DNA of 64,000 nt from Bacteroidota bacterium (GCA_947501265.1 CANMVY010000004.1:1-64000); one strand, 5' to 3'. Shown: positions 10,654-22,854, counted from the stretch's first letter. Notes: a model not told the origin generated them from the sequence alone. A program made the numbers and translations.

Positions 10654-10682
10654 TTGGAATTTCTGCATTGTTTGTATCTTTC
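10654..10682 (+). promoter_or_regulatory. Promoter of the MbnP-MbnH unit
   Basis: TTG at 10654-10656, an 18-base spacer, then TATCTTTC at 10675-10682 (one mismatch to TAnnTTTG). This places the transcription start after 10685 and so excludes the TTG codon at 10668 as the start of the MbnP-like gene. Confidence 0.55.
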
Positions 10683-10691
10683 AGGATGGGA

Positions 10692-11312
10692 ATGAAAAAG
10701 CTAATCTGGGGAGGTTTGATCGCATTTTTGATGGGTTCATTTGCAAAAGCACAATCGTGTAAGTTCTCGGTTCAATTTGCCGGAAAACCCTATTCCATGA
10801 ATACCCTTCTTTATTCGCCAACCGACACCGCTATTGTGATGCAACTGAAGTGTTATGTGCGGTACGTGCATCCGAAAAAACAAGTTTGGAAACATCAATT
10901 AATGGATTTTTACTTAGCCGAAAAACCAATCGAATTGAAACTGCCTAGGGGAGCGGATTCAATTCAACTGTTTTTTGGAGTGGATTCTGCGCTTCAAGAA
11001 AAAGGGGTGGGAACGGATGATTTGGATCCGAAAAACAACATGTATTGGGGATGGTTCCCCGGTTACATTGGCGTAAAAGTGGAAGGAATAAGCGAAACCT
11101 TTGGCGGATTTGAATACCATTTGGGAGGATTTCGTAGATACAACGCTAATCAATCTTTTATTTGGGTAAAACCTGGGAAAAATTATTCCATCGATGTAGG
11201 AGAGTTTATTTCAAAAATTCCAAAAGAAAAAGAAGGCAAAATCATGTCTCCAGGGCCTGAAATCCCCAAATTTACTCAGTATTTTGTTGAATGTATTCAT
11301 GAGCAGAGGTAA
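10692..11312 (+). CDS. MbnP-like periplasmic copper-binding protein
   Basis: 206 aa from the ATG at 10692 (10686 also possible). A signal peptide, MKKLIWGGLIAFLMGSFAKA, precedes the mature protein, so it is exported. The family signature NNMYWGWFPGYIGVKVEG and the following GFEYHLGG segment are present. In the characterised methanotroph pair, the diheme enzyme MbnH oxidises a tryptophan of MbnP to kynurenine, which forms part of a copper site. The Trp-rich YWGW stretch is the obvious region to examine here. The gene overlaps the MbnH-like gene by 14 bases. No methanobactin biosynthesis genes are in the window, so the role is probably copper handling unrelated to methanobactin. Confidence 0.85.
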   Translation: MKKLIWGGLIAFLMGSFAKAQSCKFSVQFAGKPYSMNTLLYSPTDTAIVMQLKCYVRYVHPKKQVWKHQLMDFYLAEKPIELKLPRGADSIQLFFGVDSALQEKGVGTDDLDPKNNMYWGWFPGYIGVKVEGISETFGGFEYHLGGFRRYNANQSFIWVKPGKNYSIDVGEFISKIPKEKEGKIMSPGPEIPKFTQYFVECIHEQR

Positions 11313-12306
11313 GATATTTTGGGGATGGATTGTGCTCTTTCTACTGAGCGGTATATCGTCGGAAAAGTTGTTTTTTATTCCCGATGGTTGGCCTGTTCCC
11401 GTTTATGATTTCCAACAAAATCCACCAACACAGGCCAAATTCGAGTTGGGAAGACGGTTGTTTTACGACCCTATTCTTTCGGCAGATAGTTCAACTTCTT
11501 GCAGCTCTTGCCACTCGAATTACAACGCTTTTACCCACACCGATCATGCCTTAAGTCATGGAATACACGACCGCATAGGAAAACGAAATTCAATGGCACT
11601 CTTTAATCTGGCCTGGAAAGATGCTTTCTTTTGGGACGGAGCTGTTCACCAATTGGATGTTCAAGCACTTGCACCTCTGACCGATTCCAACGAGTTAGGG
11701 AGCAATGTTAACGAGGTGCTGCAAAGGTTAAAAACGACGGCTCCCTACCCCACTCTTTTCAAAAAGGCCTTCGGCCGAGAGGAAATCAATACCAAAAACT
11801 TTTTAAAGGCGCTTGCTATTTTTGAACTAAGCCTCATCTCCAATCAATCCAAGTACGACTCTGTGCAACGGAAAGAGGCTCAGTTCACTGCTCAAGAAAA
11901 AAATGGGTACACCCTTTTCCTTCAATATTGCCAGCGATGCCACGAAGAACCACTTTTCAGAAAAAACGGATTTGAAAAAAATGGCTTACCGATGAACCCC
12001 AAATTAAAAGATACCGGCCGATTCAGCTTGACGAAACAACCAGGAGATTCCTTAAAATTTACCATTCCTAGCTTGCGAAATATCAGTTATTCTTACCCGT
12101 ACTTTCACGATGGCCGTACCAACCGATTGATGGATGTACTTCAACACTATAATGCTACTCCTTCCATCGTTCAAAATCCAATGACAAAAAACGAATTAGT
12201 TGATTTACAATCGTTTTTGCTAACTTTGAATGATTTGTCATTTGTCTTTAATAAGCAATTGGGATATCCATACGAATACAACCATTCCAAAAAAAAGAGT
12301 CAATAA
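11299..12306 (+). CDS. MbnH-like diheme cytochrome c peroxidase homologue
   Basis: 335 aa from the ATG at 11299. Diheme protein of the CcpA/MauG superfamily: heme motifs CSSCH at residues 68-72 and CQRCH at 211-215, plus FFWDGA near 111 and YFHDGR toward the C-terminus. An N-terminal hydrophobic segment (IFWGWIVLFLLSGI) directs export. Fusion or overlap with MbnP-like genes is typical of MbnH rather than of true cytochrome c peroxidases, and the expected reaction is oxidation of tryptophan in the MbnP partner. It is the second gene of the unit; the YHYH gene starts 14 bases downstream. Confidence 0.88.
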   Translation: MSRGKIFWGWIVLFLLSGISSEKLFFIPDGWPVPVYDFQQNPPTQAKFELGRRLFYDPILSADSSTSCSSCHSNYNAFTHTDHALSHGIHDRIGKRNSMALFNLAWKDAFFWDGAVHQLDVQALAPLTDSNELGSNVNEVLQRLKTTAPYPTLFKKAFGREEINTKNFLKALAIFELSLISNQSKYDSVQRKEAQFTAQEKNGYTLFLQYCQRCHEEPLFRKNGFEKNGLPMNPKLKDTGRFSLTKQPGDSLKFTIPSLRNISYSYPYFHDGRTNRLMDVLQHYNATPSIVQNPMTKNELVDLQSFLLTLNDLSFVFNKQLGYPYEYNHSKKKSQ

Positions 12307-12319
12307 CAAAATTAAAAAC

Positions 12320-13654
12320 ATGAAACCCTTTTTCTTTCTTTTCATCCTTGTTTCTTTTTCAAGCTTTTCTCAAACGAATCCCATCATTACCCAATGGATC
12401 CGAAATGCCAATGGAATTAAAGGGCGGCATTATGTTCGTGGAAATTCAACTCCAATTCAAGACCAAGATTCGGCCAATGTGAAACGTGTTTATTATTCCA
12501 ACAATTGGGTTTATGTCTTTGCTAACGGAGTTCCAGGATATGTCACCGGACCGTTTTTGGATGGGAATCCGAGTATTACCACCTCCCAAAATGCTATTTT
12601 CAAACTTCCGTTAACGCCCCAACAAAACTCGGGAACACCAACGGCCACAACCGGTGGGAACATTGGGCTTTTCATCAACGGAGTGGCCTTGTTCGATTAC
12701 CGAGATGGCGTGGCTTGGAATCCAACCACCCAATCGCTTTGCGGCGGACCTGGAAATCCTCCTTGTCCGGGCGGCCCCGGTGCAAGCATGGCATGGAATC
12801 GGGATGCCATTGTAGCAGAACGCGGAGGGTTTGATTGTTCAAAAGGACATCCGGCCATGGGGAATTACCACCACCATCAAAATCCGAGTGCGTTCAAGTT
12901 GGATCGTAACGTTATTTCCACCGTTTGTAATTTGTACGATGCCGATGGATTATACGTGATCGATAGCACCCGCCATTCTCCTCTCATCGGATTTGCGTAC
13001 GACGGATTTCCTATTTACGGTGCTTACGCTTATAGCAATACCAACGGTACCGGTGGAATAACCCGAATCAAATCGGGCTTTCAATTGAAAAACATGACGA
13101 GCCGAACGAATGGACCCGCCATCAATTCGACGTATCCATTGGGTTATTTTCGGGAAGACTACGAATTTATTGCGCGCCCAGGTCAACCCGACTATTTGGA
13201 CGAGCACAATGGGCGCTTTTGCGTTACTCCCGAGTATCCAAACGGAACTTACGCTTACTTCTGTACCGTAGATGCCAACTGGAATTCGGCTTATCCGTAT
13301 GCCGTTGGTCCTACCTTTTATGGTGTTCGGAACGCTCAAAAGGTTACGAGCATTACCGAACCTGTTACTACGTACAACGGAAATCCAAATGCTGTTGCCA
13401 ATCCCAATCAACTCGATTTCTATGCCTACGGAACACCCGATTTGGGCTTCATTGCTGTTCAAATCAACGACATCAACAAAGTTGATTTGTCAGTAAAAAT
13501 GTTAAGCATAGACGGAAAATTGATCAAATCTGAAATCATCCCAGCTGGAAGTACCATCAACTACATAGATACACGAAATTTATATCCAGGAATTTATTTG
13601 GTTGAATTGTCTTTCCAAGGATTCACATTCACTCAAAAGGTCGCGTATTTTTGA
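12320..13654 (+). CDS. Secreted YHYH-domain protein with T9SS tail
   Basis: 444 aa from the ATG at 12320, which begins a clear signal peptide (MKPFFFLFILVSFSSFSQ). The middle contains the His-rich signature GNYHHHQNPS at residues 181-190, with nearby Cys residues (SLCGG, FDCSKGHP), typical of the YHYH domain, whose function is unknown. The last ~75 residues form a type A T9SS sorting domain (VKMLSIDGKLIKSE ... LYPGIYLVELS), so the protein is predicted to be secreted or surface-anchored. The His cluster and the MbnP/MbnH neighbours suggest metal binding, which is an inference. Confidence 0.85.
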   Translation: MKPFFFLFILVSFSSFSQTNPIITQWIRNANGIKGRHYVRGNSTPIQDQDSANVKRVYYSNNWVYVFANGVPGYVTGPFLDGNPSITTSQNAIFKLPLTPQQNSGTPTATTGGNIGLFINGVALFDYRDGVAWNPTTQSLCGGPGNPPCPGGPGASMAWNRDAIVAERGGFDCSKGHPAMGNYHHHQNPSAFKLDRNVISTVCNLYDADGLYVIDSTRHSPLIGFAYDGFPIYGAYAYSNTNGTGGITRIKSGFQLKNMTSRTNGPAINSTYPLGYFREDYEFIARPGQPDYLDEHNGRFCVTPEYPNGTYAYFCTVDANWNSAYPYAVGPTFYGVRNAQKVTSITEPVTTYNGNPNAVANPNQLDFYAYGTPDLGFIAVQINDINKVDLSVKMLSIDGKLIKSEIIPAGSTINYIDTRNLYPGIYLVELSFQGFTFTQKVAYF

Positions 13655-13656
13655 GC

Positions 13657-14340
13657 ATGATCAACGAGGAAGAATATGTCATTGAATGGGATATTAAAAC
13701 TTGGAAAAAAGCTTTTACCTATTGGGAAAAAAATATTCCATGGGATAAAATAAGTCATGCATTAGAAATTGGTTCTAGAAATGGAGGACCGAGCTGGTGG
13801 ATCGCGAACAAGGGGATCATTATTGAGTGTACCGATCGCGTTGATGTTCAAAAAAATGCTCGAAAAGCGCATCAAAAAAGAGGTGGAAATAAAAATATTT
13901 CTTACTTCGATCTGGATGTACTTGAATTGGAAGAAATTGAAAAATACGACCTTGTTATTTGCAAATCAGTCTTGGGCGGTGTTGGTCATCATGGAAAAAC
14001 AGAAAGAATAGAAGATGCGATCAACAGGATTTATAAATCCCTAAAACCGGGTGGAGTTTTTTTGTTTGCCGAAAACCTGGTATCGTCTCCCATTCATGTT
14101 CTTCTCCGAAGAAAAATGACCAAATGGGGGAATTCCTGGAATTATCTTACCGAAGAACAAATTCATCAAATGACGTCCCCATTCGAATCTACAGAAATCC
14201 ATACGACAGGGTTTCTCGCCACATTCGGAAGAAATGAAAAGCAACGCAGTACTTTAGGCAGCATCGATCAAATTCTACTTCCATTCATTCCTAAAAAATG
14301 GCATTATTTGGGATACGGAATAGCAACTAAAAAAACATGA
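13657..14340 (+). CDS. Class I SAM-dependent methyltransferase
   Basis: 227 aa; start at ATG 13657, 2 bases after the previous stop (the TTG at 13651 overlaps that gene). Motif I is ALEIGSRNGG near residue 35, followed by an acidic residue after IIIECTD and a C-terminal part with LKPGGVFLFAENL. No transmembrane segment, so it is cytoplasmic. The substrate is not evident. It is the only non-exported product in this unit, and it overlaps the next gene by four bases (ATGA). Confidence 0.8.
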   Translation: MINEEEYVIEWDIKTWKKAFTYWEKNIPWDKISHALEIGSRNGGPSWWIANKGIIIECTDRVDVQKNARKAHQKRGGNKNISYFDLDVLELEEIEKYDLVICKSVLGGVGHHGKTERIEDAINRIYKSLKPGGVFLFAENLVSSPIHVLLRRKMTKWGNSWNYLTEEQIHQMTSPFESTEIHTTGFLATFGRNEKQRSTLGSIDQILLPFIPKKWHYLGYGIATKKT

Positions 14341-14809
14341 ACAAAAAATATTCGTGGTTTATTCTTGGCTTATTTCAAGGAACCATCCTCCAAGCACAAA
14401 TTCAAGTTACTGGAGCCATACAAAATCCTTCAAAAATCCAAATAGATCAATTCAAAACGATAAAATTTGGAAGAATTCCTGTTCAAAATCATCTAGGAAT
14501 AAAAAACAACTCATAACCAAAGCAAAAGGAATTCCATTATTAACCGCTCTTTCAGAGATTGAATTAATGGACTCCAATCCTACTAAGCATTTTAGCCGAT
14601 ACATCTATACGATTCGGGCAAAAGACGGATATGCTGTAACATTTTCATGGAATGAGTTGCACAATACTCCTGTCGGCAAAAAAGTTTTCCTACTTACTGA
14701 AACAGAAAGTCACCCGAATAACGGCATCATTCTCATTTCCAAATCCGATCGTTATACGGGACGGAGATTTGTTAAAGATGTATCTGAAATTCAAATTGAG
14801 AGAAAATAA
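14337..14809 (+). pseudogene. Exported SUOX-fold protein, frameshifted
   Basis: The frame starting at 14337 encodes a signal peptide (MNKKYSWFILGLFQGTILQA) and about 38 more residues, then stops at 14516. The -1 frame from about 14508 continues with KKQLITKAKGIPLLTAL ... RYIYTIRAKDGYAVTFSWNE ... GRRFVKDVSEIQI. Together they match the shape of small proteins with a sulfite-oxidase-like molybdopterin-binding fold (ADGY...FS.AEL, then R-V..V..I.V). The shift falls on A AAA AAC (14501-14507), which is read in frame as ATA AAA AAC. A one-base loss in the A run, an assembly error, or programmed -1 frameshifting are all possible. The molybdenum-ligating Cys is not seen, as in other stand-alone members. 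Confidence 0.6.
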
Positions 14810-14840
14810 GAAAGGCGACCAAATGGTCGCCTTTCTTTTT
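14810..14840. terminator. Bidirectional terminator
   Basis: An 11-bp perfect stem GAAAGGCGACC/GGTCGCCTTTC with loop AAAT, followed by T residues on the plus strand and preceded by A-rich sequence. It separates the convergent MbnP-MbnH unit and alternative complex III operon. Confidence 0.9.
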
Positions 14841-14854
14841 AGTGCTAAAAGTGA

Positions 14855-16132
14855 TTAGGTATTGTGAAGTACCGATTCTTTCAAATAAGGTGATCCCGTA
14901 GGAATCAAATTGATTTTTGATAAGCTCTTGGTTACTACCATCAACCAAAGACCAGCAAAGAATGCAAAAATTCCAACTTCAAGGATAAACTTCCAAGAAT
15001 AAATACCGGCTTCGGCTTGCCCTACGGTTCCTGGCATGATGCACAAGTACAAATCCAAAAAGTGAGCAGCCAAAATGATGGTAGCAACAGGTATGATCAT
15101 TGATTCCGTTCTTTTAGCGTCACGAGTCATGAACATTAACAGAGGAAACAAAAAGTGCAAGATGAGATTCAACCAGAATAAAAACTTGAACCCAGCCCAA
15201 CGCTCGAAGTAATACACTGCTTCTTCAGGAATATTAGCGTAGTAGTACAACAAGAATTGAGACAACCAAGTGTAAGTCCAGAAGATAGAGAATGCAAACA
15301 TCAATTTACCCAAATCGTGGTAGTGAGAAGTATTCACAAATTGAATGTAACCAGCGCGCTTCAAAAGGATGGAAAACAACATGATGGTCGAAATCGCAGC
15401 CACCCACATTCCAGCAAATTGGTTTACCCAATAGATGGTAGAAAACCAGTGTGGATCAAGTGACATCATGAAATCCCAAGATGACATGGCCCAAGTTACA
15501 CCGAAAAACGTAGTAAAAATACCTGCCATGGTTTTATTGCGCTTATGACGGAAGAAGCCGCCTTCTGCATCTTCAGCTAGTGAATGCATGCGAATCGTAC
15601 GAGTCATAAGGAACCAACCAGCAAAGAAGGCCAAAAATCGGCCAATCATGAATGGCAAATTCAAATAAGCTGATTTTTCAGCGATAATAGCATCGTAATT
15701 CGCTGAAGTAGGATCGGTAACACCTTCGTGAGCCCAGTGATAAATTTCAGCTGCACCAACAAAGATAAGAATGAACCCAGCTGCAGCGTAAGGTAGATAG
15801 GTACTGAATGCTTCTGGAATACGACGAATCCCTATCGACCAACCAGCGTTGGTTAGGTAAGCCAAAGCCATAAAAACAGAACCACCTAAAGTTAAACCTA
15901 GGAAATACCAGTTTGACAAAAGGATATCGGCCCAAAAGCGGGTTTTGTCAAAATTAACGGCATGGTGTCCACCATGACCCGCTTCTTCGTGACTACCGCC
16001 TGTGTAAGCAAGAATCAAAGAAATAATGATTGAAAGAATACCTACACCCAAAAGTACGTTGATGGTACGCTTTAGGCGAGATGATACCTGAAACATTTCA
16101 GCTGCAGGTTTATGATATGCATGTGCTCCCAT
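14855..16132 (-). CDS. actF: Alternative complex III subunit ActF
   Basis: 425 aa, about ten membrane helices. ActF is one of the two integral-membrane subunits of the quinol:cytochrome c oxidoreductase known as alternative complex III, and is paralogous to ActC/NrfD. Characteristic segments: NWYFLGLTLGGSVFMALAYL, FVGAAEIYHWAHEG, VTWAMSSWDFMMSLDPHW and FWTYTWLSQFLLYYYANIPEE. Last gene of the act operon, followed by the bidirectional terminator. In many Bacteroidota the cytochrome oxidase genes come next; here they are more than 30 kb away. Confidence 0.93.
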   Translation of the reverse strand: MGAHAYHKPAAEMFQVSSRLKRTINVLLGVGILSIIISLILAYTGGSHEEAGHGGHHAVNFDKTRFWADILLSNWYFLGLTLGGSVFMALAYLTNAGWSIGIRRIPEAFSTYLPYAAAGFILIFVGAAEIYHWAHEGVTDPTSANYDAIIAEKSAYLNLPFMIGRFLAFFAGWFLMTRTIRMHSLAEDAEGGFFRHKRNKTMAGIFTTFFGVTWAMSSWDFMMSLDPHWFSTIYWVNQFAGMWVAAISTIMLFSILLKRAGYIQFVNTSHYHDLGKLMFAFSIFWTYTWLSQFLLYYYANIPEEAVYYFERWAGFKFLFWLNLILHFLFPLLMFMTRDAKRTESMIIPVATIILAAHFLDLYLCIMPGTVGQAEAGIYSWKFILEVGIFAFFAGLWLMVVTKSLSKINLIPTGSPYLKESVLHNT

Positions 16133-16161
16133 TGATGATAATCTTTAAATGGTATTCCGAA

Positions 16162-16752
16162 TTAATTAGTTGGTGGTGTGTAACCGCGCAACGTATTCAC
16201 GTAAGTAACAATTTTCCAACGATCCTTCGGCAAGATTTGAGAACCGTGGGCCCACATCCGACCTTTACCCATGGTAATCACGTGGTAAATGTGGCCTTCT
16301 GTTTTATCAGCTACCGATTTCAAGTTAGCTACGCCACCGTATTTCTTTGCCACTGGTCCTTGTCCGTCGCCGGCTTCACCATGACAGTGTTGGCAATACT
16401 TGGTGTAAAGATCTTTCCCTTGCGACATTACCGATGTATCGGACATGCTCAAAGGATTTTTCAAAATCTTGGAGGCATACTCCAATGAATCTTTCGCAAA
16501 AGGATAATTCAACGACATCTCAATGGAAAGATCTTCTCCATTTTGCTGACGAGACACGGTTCCTGCAACAGGAAGACGCATGTTTAGGCCATCGGCATTG
16601 TAAGAATTGGGATCAATTTGAGAATAAGGGTCGTAAGGAATGGAGTGATACATTTGAGGTGCGTATTCAACACCTGGATCTTGAGGATCTTTTTGTACGC
16701 AAGCTGTCACTGAGAACGTGATAACAGCGAATAAGAAAATCTTTTTCATCAT
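16162..16752 (-). CDS. actE: Alternative complex III cytochrome c subunit ActE
   Basis: 196 aa lipoprotein: signal peptide ending at a lipobox (VTAC, Cys near residue 18). One heme c motif CQHCH near residue 125 and a distal MGKGRMWAHG region that can provide the Met ligand. It is predicted to be a periplasmic electron carrier delivering to the terminal oxidase. Overlaps the preceding actD by four bases. Confidence 0.93.
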   Translation of the reverse strand: MMKKIFLFAVITFSVTACVQKDPQDPGVEYAPQMYHSIPYDPYSQIDPNSYNADGLNMRLPVAGTVSRQQNGEDLSIEMSLNYPFAKDSLEYASKILKNPLSMSDTSVMSQGKDLYTKYCQHCHGEAGDGQGPVAKKYGGVANLKSVADKTEGHIYHVITMGKGRMWAHGSQILPKDRWKIVTYVNTLRGYTPPTN

Positions 16753-17270
16753 AACAATACCTCCTCTTCTTTCACTTCCAATGCGCCATTGGAAGACATG
16801 ATGGATTGAACATCGGAACCTTCAGCATCTTCAGATTTAATCGCAACAACGAATAAATCTTCCGTTACGCGTGGGTGAGGTTGCTTTTCAACAGCTCCAG
16901 GGAAGAATTCATTTACCCACATGAACGTGAATACCATCCCTAAGGCCGTAATCAATACAGTTCCTTCGAAAGTAACGGGAACAAAATCGGGCCAAGCCAA
17001 GTAGGGCTTACCGCCAATGTTAATTCTCCATTTATCCAAACCCAACATAAAGGTTTGCATGAACAAAGCAAGTGAGAAACCAATGCAGCCGAAAATGAAT
17101 GCTGCTACTGAAAGACGTGTTCTTTTGTATCCTAAAAGATCGTCGATACCGTGAATGGGAAACGGAGAATAAACCTCGTAAATTTTGGTGCCTGTTGCAT
17201 TGATTTTCTCAATGGCATGCATCAGAGTTTCCTCATCATCAAAATATCCCAGGACAAATTTTTGCGACAT
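16749..17270 (-). CDS. actD: Alternative complex III subunit ActD (DUF3341)
   Basis: 173 aa. Two membrane helices (AAFIFGCIGFSLALFMQTF and VLITALGMVFTFMWVNEFF) flanked by cytoplasmic parts, matching the DUF3341 family. Conserved YSPFPIHGID near residue 35. Structural subunit with no cofactor. Located between actC and actE. Confidence 0.93.
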   Translation of the reverse strand: MSQKFVLGYFDDEETLMHAIEKINATGTKIYEVYSPFPIHGIDDLLGYKRTRLSVAAFIFGCIGFSLALFMQTFMLGLDKWRINIGGKPYLAWPDFVPVTFEGTVLITALGMVFTFMWVNEFFPGAVEKQPHPRVTEDLFVVAIKSEDAEGSDVQSIMSSNGALEVKEEEVLL

Positions 17271-17281
17271 GGAATTTATTT

Positions 17282-18706
17282 TTAAGCGTGATGTGATTCG
17301 TGTGAATGTTGAGCAGATTCTTCTGCCTTTTCTTTTTCCATAGTAATCTTCATGTACTTTTCAGCAGAAGTCTTCATGATGGATTTTACCTCTGCAACCG
17401 CAATCACAGGCACGTATTTCGCAAACAAGAAGAACAAGGTGAAGAAAAGTCCCATAGAGCCCATGTACATGGAAATCTCAACCCAAGTTGGAGAATACAT
17501 AGCCCAAGAAGATGGCAAATAATCGCGGTGAAGCGAAGTAACGATAATTACGAAACGCTCGAACCACATACCGATATTTACGAAAATAGAAATGATGAAT
17601 ACTGCAGTGATGTTACGACGCAACTTCTGAGACCAGAACAACTGAGGAGTAATAACGTTACACGTCATCATCGCCCAGTACGACCACCAGTATTCACCGA
17701 ACATACGGTTAACGAAGGCGTATCGTTCGTATTCAACTGCAGAATACCACGCAATGAAAAACTCGGTGATGTACGCAGAACCTACAATCGAACCCGTTAC
17801 CATGATGATCTTACACATCACGTCAATGTGGTTCAATGTGATGTAATTTTCCAAATTCATGGCTTTACGAGCCACAATCAACAAGGTTAATACCATCGCG
17901 AATCCAGAGAATACCGCTCCTGCCACGAAGTAAGGAGGGAAAATGGTGGTGTGCCACCCTGGAATTACGGAGGTAGCAAAGTCCATGGATACAATCGTGT
18001 GTACTGAAAGTACCAAGGGAGTTGCTAAACCTGCCAAAATCAACGAAATAACTTCGAAACGACTCCATGCTTTCGCCGAACCATTCCATCCGAAGGATAA
18101 AATACCGTAGATCTTTTTCTTCATTCCTTCAGCACGGTCACGAACCGAAGCCAAATCAGGAAGCAAACCAACGTACCAGAAAACAACGGAAACGGTTAAA
18201 TAAGTAGAAATCGCAAAAACGTCCCACAACAAGGGTGAGTTGAAGTTGGCCCACAAGTTACCGTAAGTGTTTGGAAGTGGAAGAGCCCAATAAATAACCC
18301 ACGGACGACCAGCGTGCAATAACGGGTAAACCCCAGCACAAACAACCGCAAAAATGGTCATCGCTTCTGCCGAACGGTTAACGGCTGTTCTCCATTTTTG
18401 GCGGAACAACAACAAAACCGCTGAAATCAACGTACCGGCGTGACCAATACCTACCCACCAAACGAAGTTGGTAATATCCCAACCCCAATCAACGGTTTTA
18501 TTCAAACCCCAGCTCCCAACTCCATTCCAGAGTAAGTAACCGATGGCCCAAACATAAAGAGCTAAAAAAGCCAATGAAATTGCAAAACCCATGTACCACC
18601 ACTGGGTAGGTTTCGCCTCAACCGGAATAATGATATCATCGGAGATCTTTTTATAAGTGGTGTCATCTCCGGTGATGAGCGGTCTTCTATAGGGGGACTC
18701 GTACAT
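17282..18706 (-). CDS. actC: Alternative complex III subunit ActC (NrfD-like)
   Basis: 474 aa, about ten membrane helices, NrfD/PsrC family. This subunit is expected to carry a quinol-binding site, working with the iron-sulfur subunit ActB. Conserved segments: [37 protein letters not shown] and [20 protein letters not shown]-terminal tail is His-rich (HSHESHH). Starts 11 bases after actB ends. Confidence 0.95.
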
Positions 18707-18717
18707 ACCTTTATCTT

Positions 18718-21700
18718 TTATGCTTGGTTTTTATCATTGTTACGAACCTTCACCAAATACTGAACACTTGGTAGAACCTGAATTTCTTCGATCAAACCGT
18801 AAGCACGGTCGCTGTTCACCAACTTGTAAATTTCGGAAGTTTCATCGTTTACATCACCAAATACGATGGCATTGGAAGGACAAGCTTTTTGACAAGCTGT
18901 TTTCACTTCTCCATCTTTGATGTTTCTGCTTTCTTTCTTTGCCTGCAACTTGCTAGCTTGAATGCTCTGAACGCAGAAGGTACATTTTTCCATAACTCCA
19001 CGTGCACGTACAGTTACGTCTGGATTCAATACCATGCGTCCTAATTCTGTTTGTGAAGGATTCACATCCGAGAACAACGGATTATCGTAGTAGCTGAACC
19101 AGTTGAAGCGACGTACTTTGTATGGGCAGTTGTTTGCGCAATAACGTGTTCCAACACAACGGTTGTAAACCATTTGGTTCAATCCCTCGTCGCTGTGCAC
19201 GGTAGCCAAAACTGGGCAAACTGTTTCGCAAGGAGCGTTATCGCACTGCTGACACATCACAGGTTGGTAAACCACAGAAACGTCAGAGAAATCAGCTACA
19301 TCGTTTTTGAACTCACGGAAAACGTTTCCGTCGTTATTGTATTGCTCACCGCCGTATTCGGTTTCTTCGGTGATTGCACGTCCGTCTTTTGCACGGAAAG
19401 TGAAGTAACGGTCGATACGCATCCAATGCATTTCGCGACGATTAATCACTTCTTGGCGACCCACAACGGGAACGTTATTTTCTGATTGACATGCTACAAC
19501 GCAAGAACCGCAACCAATACAAGCGTTCAAATCGATTCCCATCATCCAATGATGAGAAGGATATTTGCGCTTGTTCCACAAGGTTATTGTTTCATCGTAA
19601 GCATTTACTTTTACGTGCTCGCCCTTTTCGTTTTTCATCAAAAGATGCGGACGCAAATTGTATTCTTCGTGCTTACCCGCTTTTTTAGCAGATAAATAAG
19701 TAGCAAGAGAAGTTTCCTTTACAATGGAACGACCTTCAATGGTGTGGTGCGTTTGGGTTTGAGCCAATTTACGGTGCTCTCCAGTTGCAGCTACTTTCAC
19801 ATTAGAAACGTAATAAGAACGATTTCCATTTACGGTAGAAACAAATGGGAAGGCATTTTGCCCAACATTCAAACCAGCTTTTCCAACTTTAGTTCGTCCG
19901 TAACCCAATGCTAGTGCCACAACGTTTGGCATCATACCGGGCAACATCAAAATAGGAACAGTTACTTTGTAGCCATTGGCCTCAACCGTAACCATGTCTC
20001 CTTCTGACAAATTGTTTTGCTTGGCGTACATTGGATTTACAGCGAGGTAATTGTCCCAGCAAGCTTTGGTGATTGGATCTGGCATTTCTTGCAACCAAGG
20101 ATTATTGGCTTGAAGGCCATCACCCAATCCCATTTTTTGATAAATCACCATTTCCAATCCGCCAGCGTTTCCTTTGATGTTACTGGCATTAAAGGAAGCC
20201 ATGGAAGCGTTATCGGAAGATGCTCCAGTTAATACAAGAACTCCTTGGTTCAATGAATTACGCCAAAAGCTGTCGGTGGTAGAATATTTAGATTGTTTGG
20301 AGAACATTTGTGCGCTCCAGAAATCTTTCAAATATTGGTAGTGAGAAGCAGAACTTCCGTTCCAAGCCAATAAACACTCCTCTAAAGAACGGGTATTGAA
20401 CAACTTAGAAATGGATGGTTGCTGCAAAGAATAAGAACCTTCACGAACCTCGGCATCACCCCAAGACTCTAGGAAGTGATTTGCAGCTGAGATGTGAGAA
20501 CAAACGCTTGAAGTTTCATCGTGTCCAGAAACCAATGAAATAGAAGCTTTGGCACCTTGAATTTGCTTTGCAAGTGCAGAACCATTGGCCATGGTGTAAA
20601 CCGGATTAACACCAGCAAAAACAACCACCGAATTGGCATTGATGCCATTCATTGCGTTCATGGCAGCAGTATCGTTTCCTTGACGAATGTTCAAAGAATT
20701 TACACCGTCGATGGTTGAACCGTAGTTACCCAACATCTTGTTGATGTTGTTCACCATGATTTGAACGTCTTTGTTGTTGGATCCACAAACAACCAAAGAA
20801 GCACCTTTGGCAGAAACCAATTTCTTGGCTGATGCAGCAACAAGATTGCCTGCAACTTCCATTCCTTTGATTCCAGCTTCGGAATTTCCGGTTTGCTTCG
20901 CTACTTCATTGTACAATTGAGCTACCACCAAACCTTCGTTCGAAGGAAGGTAAGTAGAACGAAAATCGGCGTTAGAACCGGTTAATGACAACGCGGGTTC
21001 GAAATGGTAATGAACCGACATGTTGCCTTCTTCATTCACTTTACGGCGAGAAGAATAACCAGCGATATTCATCAATCCACCTCCCCAGTTTCCTAAGAAA
21101 TCGGCATTGATAGAAACGATAACATTGGCTTTAGCAAAATCGTAATAAGGAACAACCGCTTTTCCAAGAGTAGCTTGGTTAGCTTCCAACATTCCTGAAT
21201 AAGATACAGAATCGAAAACCACGTGCTTCGCACCAAATTGACCAACGAATGATTGAATCAATGCTTTGGTAGATGGAGAAACGATGGAAGGAGTTACCAA
21301 AGTAGCTCCGCCATTGGACTTAGCATCATTCAATAAAGTGATAACCTCTTTATCGAAATCTGCCCAAGAAACTTCTTTTCCGCCAATCATTGGATTCTTG
21401 GTTCCTTCGCGATGGGTATCGTACAAGCCTAAAACGGCAGCAGATACACGTGCCGAAACCCCATTTCCAGTTAATGGAGATAGGTTATTCGCTTCAATTT
21501 TGATGGGACGCCCTTCACGGGTTTTTACCAAAACGTCAGCAAAATCATTGCCGTCAAAATACGTTGAAGCGTAGTAATTGGCAATGGAGGGCGACATTTC
21601 AGCAGGATGGTTCAAGAAAGGGATTGCTTTCTTGATGGGTGTAGTGTTACACGCCGCCAAGGAAGCAGCACCTACGCTGAAACCAAAAATTTTCAAAAAG

Positions 21701-21855
21701 TCGCGTCGGTTCGTGGAAGAAACCGATGCGTTCTCAGCAATGATTTCATCTACCGGAATCTCTTGACCAAATTCGGAAGAGATTTCCTGTTGGAATGCAG
21801 GAGTATTGTTGAGTTCGTCAACACTTTTCCAATATTTCCTCTCGGAGTTATTCAT
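18718..21855 (-). CDS. actB: Alternative complex III iron-sulfur subunit ActB
   Basis: 1045 aa. The N-terminus carries a twin-arginine motif RRDFLKIF (residues 50-57) and a Cys after AA (residue 69) suitable for lipid attachment. The first two thirds resemble a molybdopterin oxidoreductase that lacks cofactor function in this complex. The last third holds ferredoxin-like Cys clusters: [37 protein letters not shown], and CTFC with CQKACP. This matches the known three 4Fe-4S plus one 3Fe-4S arrangement. Periplasmic, transfers electrons from quinol toward the cytochromes. Confidence 0.96.
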
Positions 21856-21877
21856 GGATTATTCGGTTATGCGTTGA

Positions 21878-22810
21878 TTAATAGTGACATTTTGAGCACT
21901 CCATTCCTCCCAATTGAGAGATGGTCATGCCTTCGCCGGATGCAACGGCTTGCTTGAACTTTTCAGATTTTCCGTGAACGGACTTGTAATAGCCATTATC
22001 CATGTTAACCTTCGTTTTGGTGTGGCAATCGATACACCAACCCATGGTTAATGGAGACTGTTGCTTTACCACTTCCATGGTCTCAATAGGACCGTGACAA
22101 GTTTGGCAAGCAATACCTCCCACTTTGTAGTGTTGGGAGTGGTTGAAATATGCGAAATCTTGAAGATTGTGAATACGAACCCACTGAATAGGCTTCTGCT
22201 TGTAACCAGGAATGTAAGCCTGAGTTGCAGGATCCCAACCTACTGCATCGTAAATCTTTTGAATTTGCTCGCTCTCGGGCTTAACTACGTTATGACAGTT
22301 CATACAAATATTTGCGGAAGGAATCGTAGCCGATTTTCCACGCTCCACACCTGTGTGGCAATATGAACATTGAATTTTGTACTCTCCAGCATGTAGTTTG
22401 TGGGAGTAAGCAATGGGTTGCTTAGGACCGTATCCTTGTTGCATACCCACTTTGGATGCTAAATCAACAGCTCCAGCAGTCATCAAAATGAAAAAACCTA
22501 CCAAACCGAAAACAACGTACAAACCTGGGTGAACTCGTTTGAAAAGATTGACATCTTTCAATTGCTCTCCTTCTACTTTTCCGGCAGCAATGTCGGACTG
22601 TAGTTTACCGTTGGCCAAACGATTGATCACTCCTAAAAGTGACAATACTAAAATTGACAATAGGATGATAATTCCTAAAAGAGATTCGCGACCGATGGGC
22701 GCATTCTCTGTTTCTTGTGCCCACACGGGAGCCGACATTCCCACTCCTAAAAGTGTGAATGCCACGTACTTAAGACGACTTCTAAACATTGTTTTCGCAG
22801 TGAAATACAT
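21878..22810 (-). CDS. actA: Alternative complex III pentaheme cytochrome ActA
   Basis: 310 aa from the ATG at 22810; 22789 (MFRSRLK...) is an alternative, and a TTG at 22849 lies inside the -7 box. A signal-like segment ends APVWAQ, then two further hydrophobic helices. Five CxxCH motifs (CSYCH, CMNCH, CQTCH, CIDCH, CSKCH) give the expected pentaheme count. First gene of the actABCDEF operon. Electrons received here pass to ActE or directly to the oxidase. Confidence 0.94.
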   Translation of the reverse strand: MYFTAKTMFRSRLKYVAFTLLGVGMSAPVWAQETENAPIGRESLLGIIILLSILVLSLLGVINRLANGKLQSDIAAGKVEGEQLKDVNLFKRVHPGLYVVFGLVGFFILMTAGAVDLASKVGMQQGYGPKQPIAYSHKLHAGEYKIQCSYCHTGVERGKSATIPSANICMNCHNVVKPESEQIQKIYDAVGWDPATQAYIPGYKQKPIQWVRIHNLQDFAYFNHSQHYKVGGIACQTCHGPIETMEVVKQQSPLTMGWCIDCHTKTKVNMDNGYYKSVHGKSEKFKQAVASGEGMTISQLGGMECSKCHY

Positions 22811-22846
22811 GGAGTTTTGTTTGAATTGGTTATTCCAATTTGTGCG

Positions 22847-22854
22847 CAAATTTA
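22847..22854 (-). promoter_or_regulatory. -7 box of the act operon
   Basis: TAAATTTG on the minus strand matches TAnnTTTG. A TTG at 22871-22869 is only 14 bases upstream, short for the usual spacer. The predicted transcription start lies about 30 bases before the ATG at 22810. Confidence 0.4.

Follow-up and report, generated by a model that had tools for sequence, protein, structure and literature searches.

MbnP and MbnH are known as the partners of a tryptophan oxidation, in which, as Manesis et al. reportedly described in 2021, the first WxW Trp of MbnP becomes kynurenine, with His and Met as copper ligands. MbnP and MbnH occur far beyond the methanobactin producers and have been termed "mysterious partners" (PMC3621798), and MbnPH-like genes have been found in copper operons (PMC9426467). 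The YHYH domain, which is found in bacteria, phages and diatoms, is described as enigmatic (PMC7824862, PMC11992049). For phage YHYH homologues, three His and one Asp were proposed to form a metal site, with zinc favoured as the metal and a hydrolase function predicted (PMC7824862). Here we analysed a 64,000-nucleotide stretch of DNA from a Bacteroidota bacterium (the window), in which genes for these three families lie side by side. We give about an even chance to the reading that the window holds a member of a widespread, co-inherited copper cassette, mbnP-mbnH-yhyh, in which MbnP would serve an exported YHYH metalloprotein.

Results

Organization of the locus

The trio belongs to a compact run of genes on the plus strand, flanked by lepA (divergent) and by alternative complex III-like genes (convergent) (Table 1). 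The initial annotation of this run was made from the sequence alone, and most of its layout was borne out. The 14-base overlap between mbnP and the mbnH-like gene is exact (11299-11312), the methyltransferase gene was confirmed, and the closing terminator corresponds to a hairpin that is conserved in both sister species. Since the hairpin sits between convergent genes, it may serve both. The promoter that was said to open the run was weakly supported: a possible -7 element of the Bacteroidota type matches at seven of eight positions and is kept in the sister species G002, but it is unalignable in the other, G001, and position 10675 is a candidate promoter site. The SUOX fold proposed for the last gene found no support in Pfam or PDB; the intact sister copies of this small secreted gene matched no Pfam family, and one of them, searched against PDB, gave no match. 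Compared with two sister species, where the gene is open, the window copy has a one-base deletion and is thus a pseudogene or an assembly error. The methyltransferase gene was found by phmmer only in the G001 and G002 loci, i.e. in the window's genus, and the small secreted gene likewise adjoins the trio only in that genus.

Table 1. Features of the mbnP-mbnH-yhyh run, in coordinates of the window
Feature	Position	Strand	Evidence and remarks
Possible -7 promoter element TATCTTTC	10675-10682	+	7/8 vs TAnnTTTG; overlaps mbnP start region
mbnP	10686-11312	+	PF20243 61.5 bits; signal-peptide protein, YHYH-linked MbnP clade
mbnH-like diheme protein gene	11299-12306	+	PF03150; profile best PDB match 6e1c
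yhyh, T9SS C-terminal tail	12320-13654	+	PF14240 197 bits, TIGR04183, conservation
SAM-dependent methyltransferase gene	13657-14340	+	Methyltransf_12; accessory, not core
Small secreted protein gene, frameshifted ~14495	14338-14809	+	Open in two sister species; accessory, not core
Terminator hairpin	14808-14837	.	13-pair stem, -22.2 kcal/mol, z -7.3

Two observations were made on the flanks. The alternative complex III-like genes (14855-22849, minus strand) encode membrane, cytochrome and iron-sulphur subunits, and the part of them closest to the trio has the same position in both sister species. At the locus in G001 (L050, 1-630), the DNA 5' of mbnP could not be aligned with the window and no lepA was seen, while the downstream genes were retained, which points to a rearrangement near the mbnP start.

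MbnP and the MbnH-like diheme protein

The assignment of the first gene as MbnP-like held, its PF20243 score lying above the curated cut-off of 27. The window protein carries M119, W121-x-W123, H145 and M187, that is, a WxW motif together with Met and His. It gave no match to TIGR04052 (MbnP_like_WxW), which matched 29 of 30 aligned YHYH-linked MbnPs with E values up to 0.01. Among the linked MbnPs, Met-x-Trp-x-Trp and the His of HxGG were each present in 73 of 73; the C-terminal Met-x-Pro was found in 68 of these, and the C-terminal Met was therefore rejected as a universal mark of the group. In a tree of 106 MbnP sequences, one branch (SH-aLRT 100, length 1.03) split 31 ordinary sequences from all YHYH-linked ones; the three "other" rows on the linked side were the YHYH loci L115 and L125 and the contig edge L010, which comes from a genome with a split cassette. 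The MbnP of the window's genus is very divergent, with a branch length of 2.45 in this tree. The MbnH tree gave a picture resembling that of MbnP, with weaker support.

A lipobox, scored by a relaxed rule, was present in 7 of 73 linked MbnPs versus 29 of 30 unlinked ones. The unlinked set was picked among relatives by highest PF20243 score and is a non-random sample. The corresponding figures for MbnH were 9 of 73 linked and 23 of 23 unlinked. The seven positive MbnPs include those of the window's genus, whose AQSC motif is doubtful as a lipobox. The linked pair is thus predicted to be mostly soluble and periplasmic, which would suit a mobile carrier. The AlphaFold model of MbnP scored 81, with low values in the WxW loop, and had no significant fold match in PDB; neither a single-sequence nor a profile search found a PDB chain for MbnP. 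Further MbnP genes are present in the same genome (G000:C1:133954-134505, G000:C7:25879-26466 and G000:C3:260935-261435), none of them with YHYH. The C1 and C3 copies, which are the two that were read, are lipoprotein-like, and no CCP_MauG gene was listed near the C3 copy.

The second gene had been called a diheme MbnH-like protein, and this name is retained. The protein scored 172.7 bits against PF03150 and has CxxCH at 68 and 211, as a two-haem member of the MauG/CCP fold family does. TIGR04039 (the MbnH family) was its best NCBIfam model at 191 bits, but this is under the equivalog cut-off of 363, so the protein was filed as MbnH-like and not as a certified member of TIGR04039. A profile of the linked MbnH proteins, searched against PDB, had its best match in 6e1c (3e-59), ahead of cytochrome c peroxidases and MauG; 6e1c is entered as "Di-heme enzyme", and we take it to be Methylosinus MbnH. 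Y284, at the position of the second-haem axial ligand, aligns with the Tyr of 6e1c, where 1iqc, 3o5c and 2c1u have Met. This MbnH-type Tyr ligand and the match to 6e1c suggest a Trp-oxidising instead of a peroxidase role. The window proteins have the residues on which the known oxidation of an MbnP Trp by MbnH depends. MbnB (PF05114) had no match anywhere in the window's genome, in agreement with the earlier statement that methanobactin genes are missing, and the locus is not classed as a methanobactin operon.

Linkage of yhyh to mbnP and mbnH

YHYH had been put forward as a candidate third component of the MbnP/MbnH system, with co-occurrence in other genomes as a check. Three surveys were carried out. 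In the first, 60 relatives were mapped for MbnP, MbnH and YHYH, and 12 of the 17 strong YHYH genes (E < 1e-40) lay beside MbnP and/or MbnH, for which the rough chance was 5e-23; in one of the 12 (G032), which lies where a contig ends, MbnH is the only partner visible. The second covered the 80 closest YHYH homologues in GTDB contigs and is biased to close relatives. MbnP followed by MbnH was found directly upstream on the same strand in 63 of these. Of the rest, 4 had MbnH where the contig ends, 2 offered too short a sequence, and 11 fell outside these classes. Two of the 11 are linked in a different arrangement, namely L125, with the order MCO-MbnP-MbnH-YHYH/SprB-YHYH, and L115, where the MbnP/MbnH pair is divergent to YHYH. 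In total, 65 of 80 were linked, and 9 of 80 were without MbnP or MbnH in the contig sequence available. The third survey was a phylum-wide draw of 248 genomes, 27 of which had YHYH (19 strong). Linkage was seen in 8 of the 19 strong-YHYH genomes, and many YHYH genes were unlinked. The first and third surveys, which share two of the linked genomes, are less biased than the second, and in both the links were far above chance. The recurrence of the linkage in all three surveys upholds YHYH as a candidate third component.

The order YHYH-MbnP-MbnH was found in G083 and G167. Links to MbnP/MbnH also occur among YHYH proteins that do not belong to the main linked clade, namely L059 and L060, which were placed in the tree, and L181 and L182. 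More than one origin of the association is therefore probable, the number of origins being uncertain given the long branches. L060 (G033:C57, 8767-13563) encodes, in order, YHYH, a T9SS-tailed arylsulfotransferase-family protein, MbnP and MbnH; its MbnP is outside the main linked clade. In L125 (4447-7833), the gene between MbnH and a second YHYH gene encodes a fusion of a YHYH domain with SprB repeats and a T9SS tail. Among the unlinked YHYH genes examined, no common neighbour was found except multicopper oxidases.

Metal sensor and multicopper oxidase genes in relatives

Clustering of neighbouring genes indicated that three genes precede the trio in relatives, in this order: one for an ECF sigma factor (PF04542/PF08281), one for a small membrane protein, likely the cognate anti-sigma, and one for a Metal_resist protein (PF13801) that is membrane-anchored and of CnrX/ZraP type. 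The ECF sigma factor and the Metal_resist sensor were both present in 31 of the 56 linked loci with enough sequence. Of the 80 loci, 12 had a multicopper oxidase gene, which in some lay between MbnH and YHYH; the product was T9SS-tailed in both cases examined. This context suggests copper as the theme shared by the cassette loci, and induction by metal. Where the sensor is present, copper management or the loading of a surface copper protein probably fits better than chalkophore-based uptake. Counting against the copper reading, the window's genus has no ECF and Metal_resist sensor beside the operon, no multicopper oxidase (PF07732) was found in the window's genome, and the MbnP is very divergent. 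The unlinked YHYH genes, both those among the 80 close homologues and those of the phylum draw, weigh against it as well. Two further loci were noted. At L189 (G246:C21, 6922-11634), a gene for a 721-aa YHYH protein is directly followed by one for an 840-aa multicopper oxidase, with no MbnP/MbnH; at G003:C6:105978-107198, a Metal_resist-type match and a CCP_MauG match lie side by side in what may be a related metal-sensing unit, and none of the genes listed around them is an MbnP.

The YHYH protein and its possible roles

The third protein had been described as a His-rich YHYH protein secreted by the T9SS. Membership of the family was confirmed with PF14240, the Y-H-x-H core being Y183, H184, H185 and H186. 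Secretion was confirmed as well: the tail is a T9SS type-A sorting domain (TIGR04183, 29.9 bits versus a cut-off of 23), and the T9SS core component SprA is present in the window's genome. The protein is not His-rich, with 7 His in 444 residues, three of which form an invariant cluster, and the idea of a bulk metal sponge was rejected on this count. H177, H184, H186, D228, D280, D294, Y233, Y311 and W159 were kept in all compared homologues, linked or unlinked, and look like an active or cofactor site rather than a sponge. The AlphaFold model of YHYH was of low confidence (pLDDT 53.5), and a PDB profile search returned T9SS tails and one weak chance match but no YHYH-domain structure. Carrying metal outside the cell, the role first proposed for YHYH, is one possibility; given the few His residues and the family-wide signature resembling a metal site, the protein is no less likely to be a metalloenzyme or a copper client.

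An enzyme of this kind could also turn the argument around. YHYH would then be a T9SS-exported enzyme and MbnP/MbnH its maturation pair, either because MbnP loads copper into YHYH or because MbnH also oxidises a YHYH residue, and the cassette would exist for making an enzyme and not for copper management. The model is MauG, which matures methylamine dehydrogenase. A precedent is methanethiol oxidase, a copper enzyme whose operon includes SCO1/SenC and MauG (PMC5739008). In keeping with such a role, YHYH is better conserved than either of its partners, with a median identity to the window protein of 62%, as against 48% for MbnH and 25% for MbnP, its signature is active-site-like, and W133 is invariant within the linked clade and variable elsewhere. 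However, most MbnP/MbnH pairs have no YHYH and so have a life of their own, and the metal-sensor control and multicopper oxidases indicate metal handling. We consider this explanation unlikely; it shares most of its predictions with the copper cassette.

We regard as more improbable still that YHYH is a surface zinc-dependent hydrolase whose proximity to MbnP/MbnH reflects shared induction by metal or envelope stress, with no common pathway. Copper is a putative metal for YHYH, and the published prediction from phage homologues, of a zinc site and a hydrolase role (PMC7824862), agrees with a hydrolase, as does the frequency of YHYH without MbnP/MbnH in the phylum draw. Against it, the linkage is adjacent, has a fixed order, extends across phyla, involves a matching MbnP/MbnH subfamily and probably arose more than once. 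Finally, it is very improbable that the trio in this genome is in decay and has lost the function it has in relatives: the long MbnP branch, the frameshift in the last gene of the run and the missing sensor and multicopper oxidase would fit decay, but the key residues are all retained, YHYH is 87-93% identical across the genus, MbnH is 87% identical to its nearest relative, and the broken gene is outside the conserved core.

Discussion

The analysis shows a conserved, co-inherited trio, one clade of linked MbnPs, conserved catalytic and ligand-type residues, export signals and, in relatives, a frequent location behind the ECF sigma factor and metal sensor and next to multicopper oxidases. For the copper cassette, the comparisons suggest the following scheme. 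In the periplasm, MbnH would oxidise W121, the first Trp of WxW in soluble MbnP, to kynurenine, and the kynurenine, H145 and a Met (M119 or M187) would form a copper site. MbnP would handle periplasmic copper and then serve YHYH, a putative metalloprotein with a single site of three His and one Asp, which would reach the cell surface through the type IX system. At sensor-bearing loci, the cassette would probably be switched on by periplasmic metal. Kynurenine formation, copper binding by MbnP and transfer to YHYH are the steps that we infer from conserved residues and gene order.

The repeated tight linkage provides a concrete partner for both MbnP/MbnH and YHYH and leads to a copper hypothesis that can be tested directly. 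In relatives, the ECF and sensor genes offer a natural switch for testing metal induction. The recurrence of the trio in Bacteroidota suggests an overlooked form of copper handling at the cell surface. Going further, and held more tentatively than the cassette itself, YHYH could represent a novel class of copper proteins or enzymes that are exported to the surface and obtain their metal from a kynurenine-type copper chaperone, so that MbnP, MbnH and YHYH form one pathway, often under metal-sensing ECF control, in Bacteroidota and Ignavibacteriota. If true, this one-pathway reading would give the YHYH domain its first function. MbnP/MbnH outside methanobactin operons were already known. A literature search, the neighbourhood analysis of Manesis 2021 aside, found no account of an MbnP-MbnH-YHYH cluster or of ECF/CnrX-type control of MbnP/MbnH, and both the partnership and the control may be undescribed.

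Several known systems share parts of this arrangement. The CnrYXH system of Cupriavidus has the ECF sigma factor, small membrane protein and Metal_resist (PF13801) components that are found in order at the relatives' loci; there, however, they precede MbnP-MbnH-YHYH instead of an efflux pump, and the window's genus does not have them. The methanethiol oxidase operon mtoX-SCO1-mauG likewise encodes an exported copper protein together with a copper chaperone and an enzyme resembling MauG (PMC5739008), but its client and chaperone belong to other families. CorA-CorB and MopE-SACCP of methanotrophs are alike in having a surface copper protein, a Trp-derived kynurenine and a co-transcribed relative of diheme peroxidases (PMC3912023); they differ in their two-His site and in having no YHYH, and the published description sets them apart from MbnP, to which their sequence is not markedly similar (PMC3621798). 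The lipoprotein MbnP/MbnH pairs of Bacteroidota, including the other copies in this genome, are of the same families and gene order, but they have lipoboxes and no YHYH, whereas the linked pairs are mostly soluble and form their own clade. The methanobactin-operon pair of the Methylosinus trichosporium OB3b type (TIGR04039/TIGR04052) shares the adjacent genes, the WxW motif with Met and His, and a diheme enzyme with the Tyr ligand aligned to 6e1c. Compared with methanobactin operons, the loci described here have a conserved third gene, yhyh, belong to a separate clade and, in relatives, are under different control.
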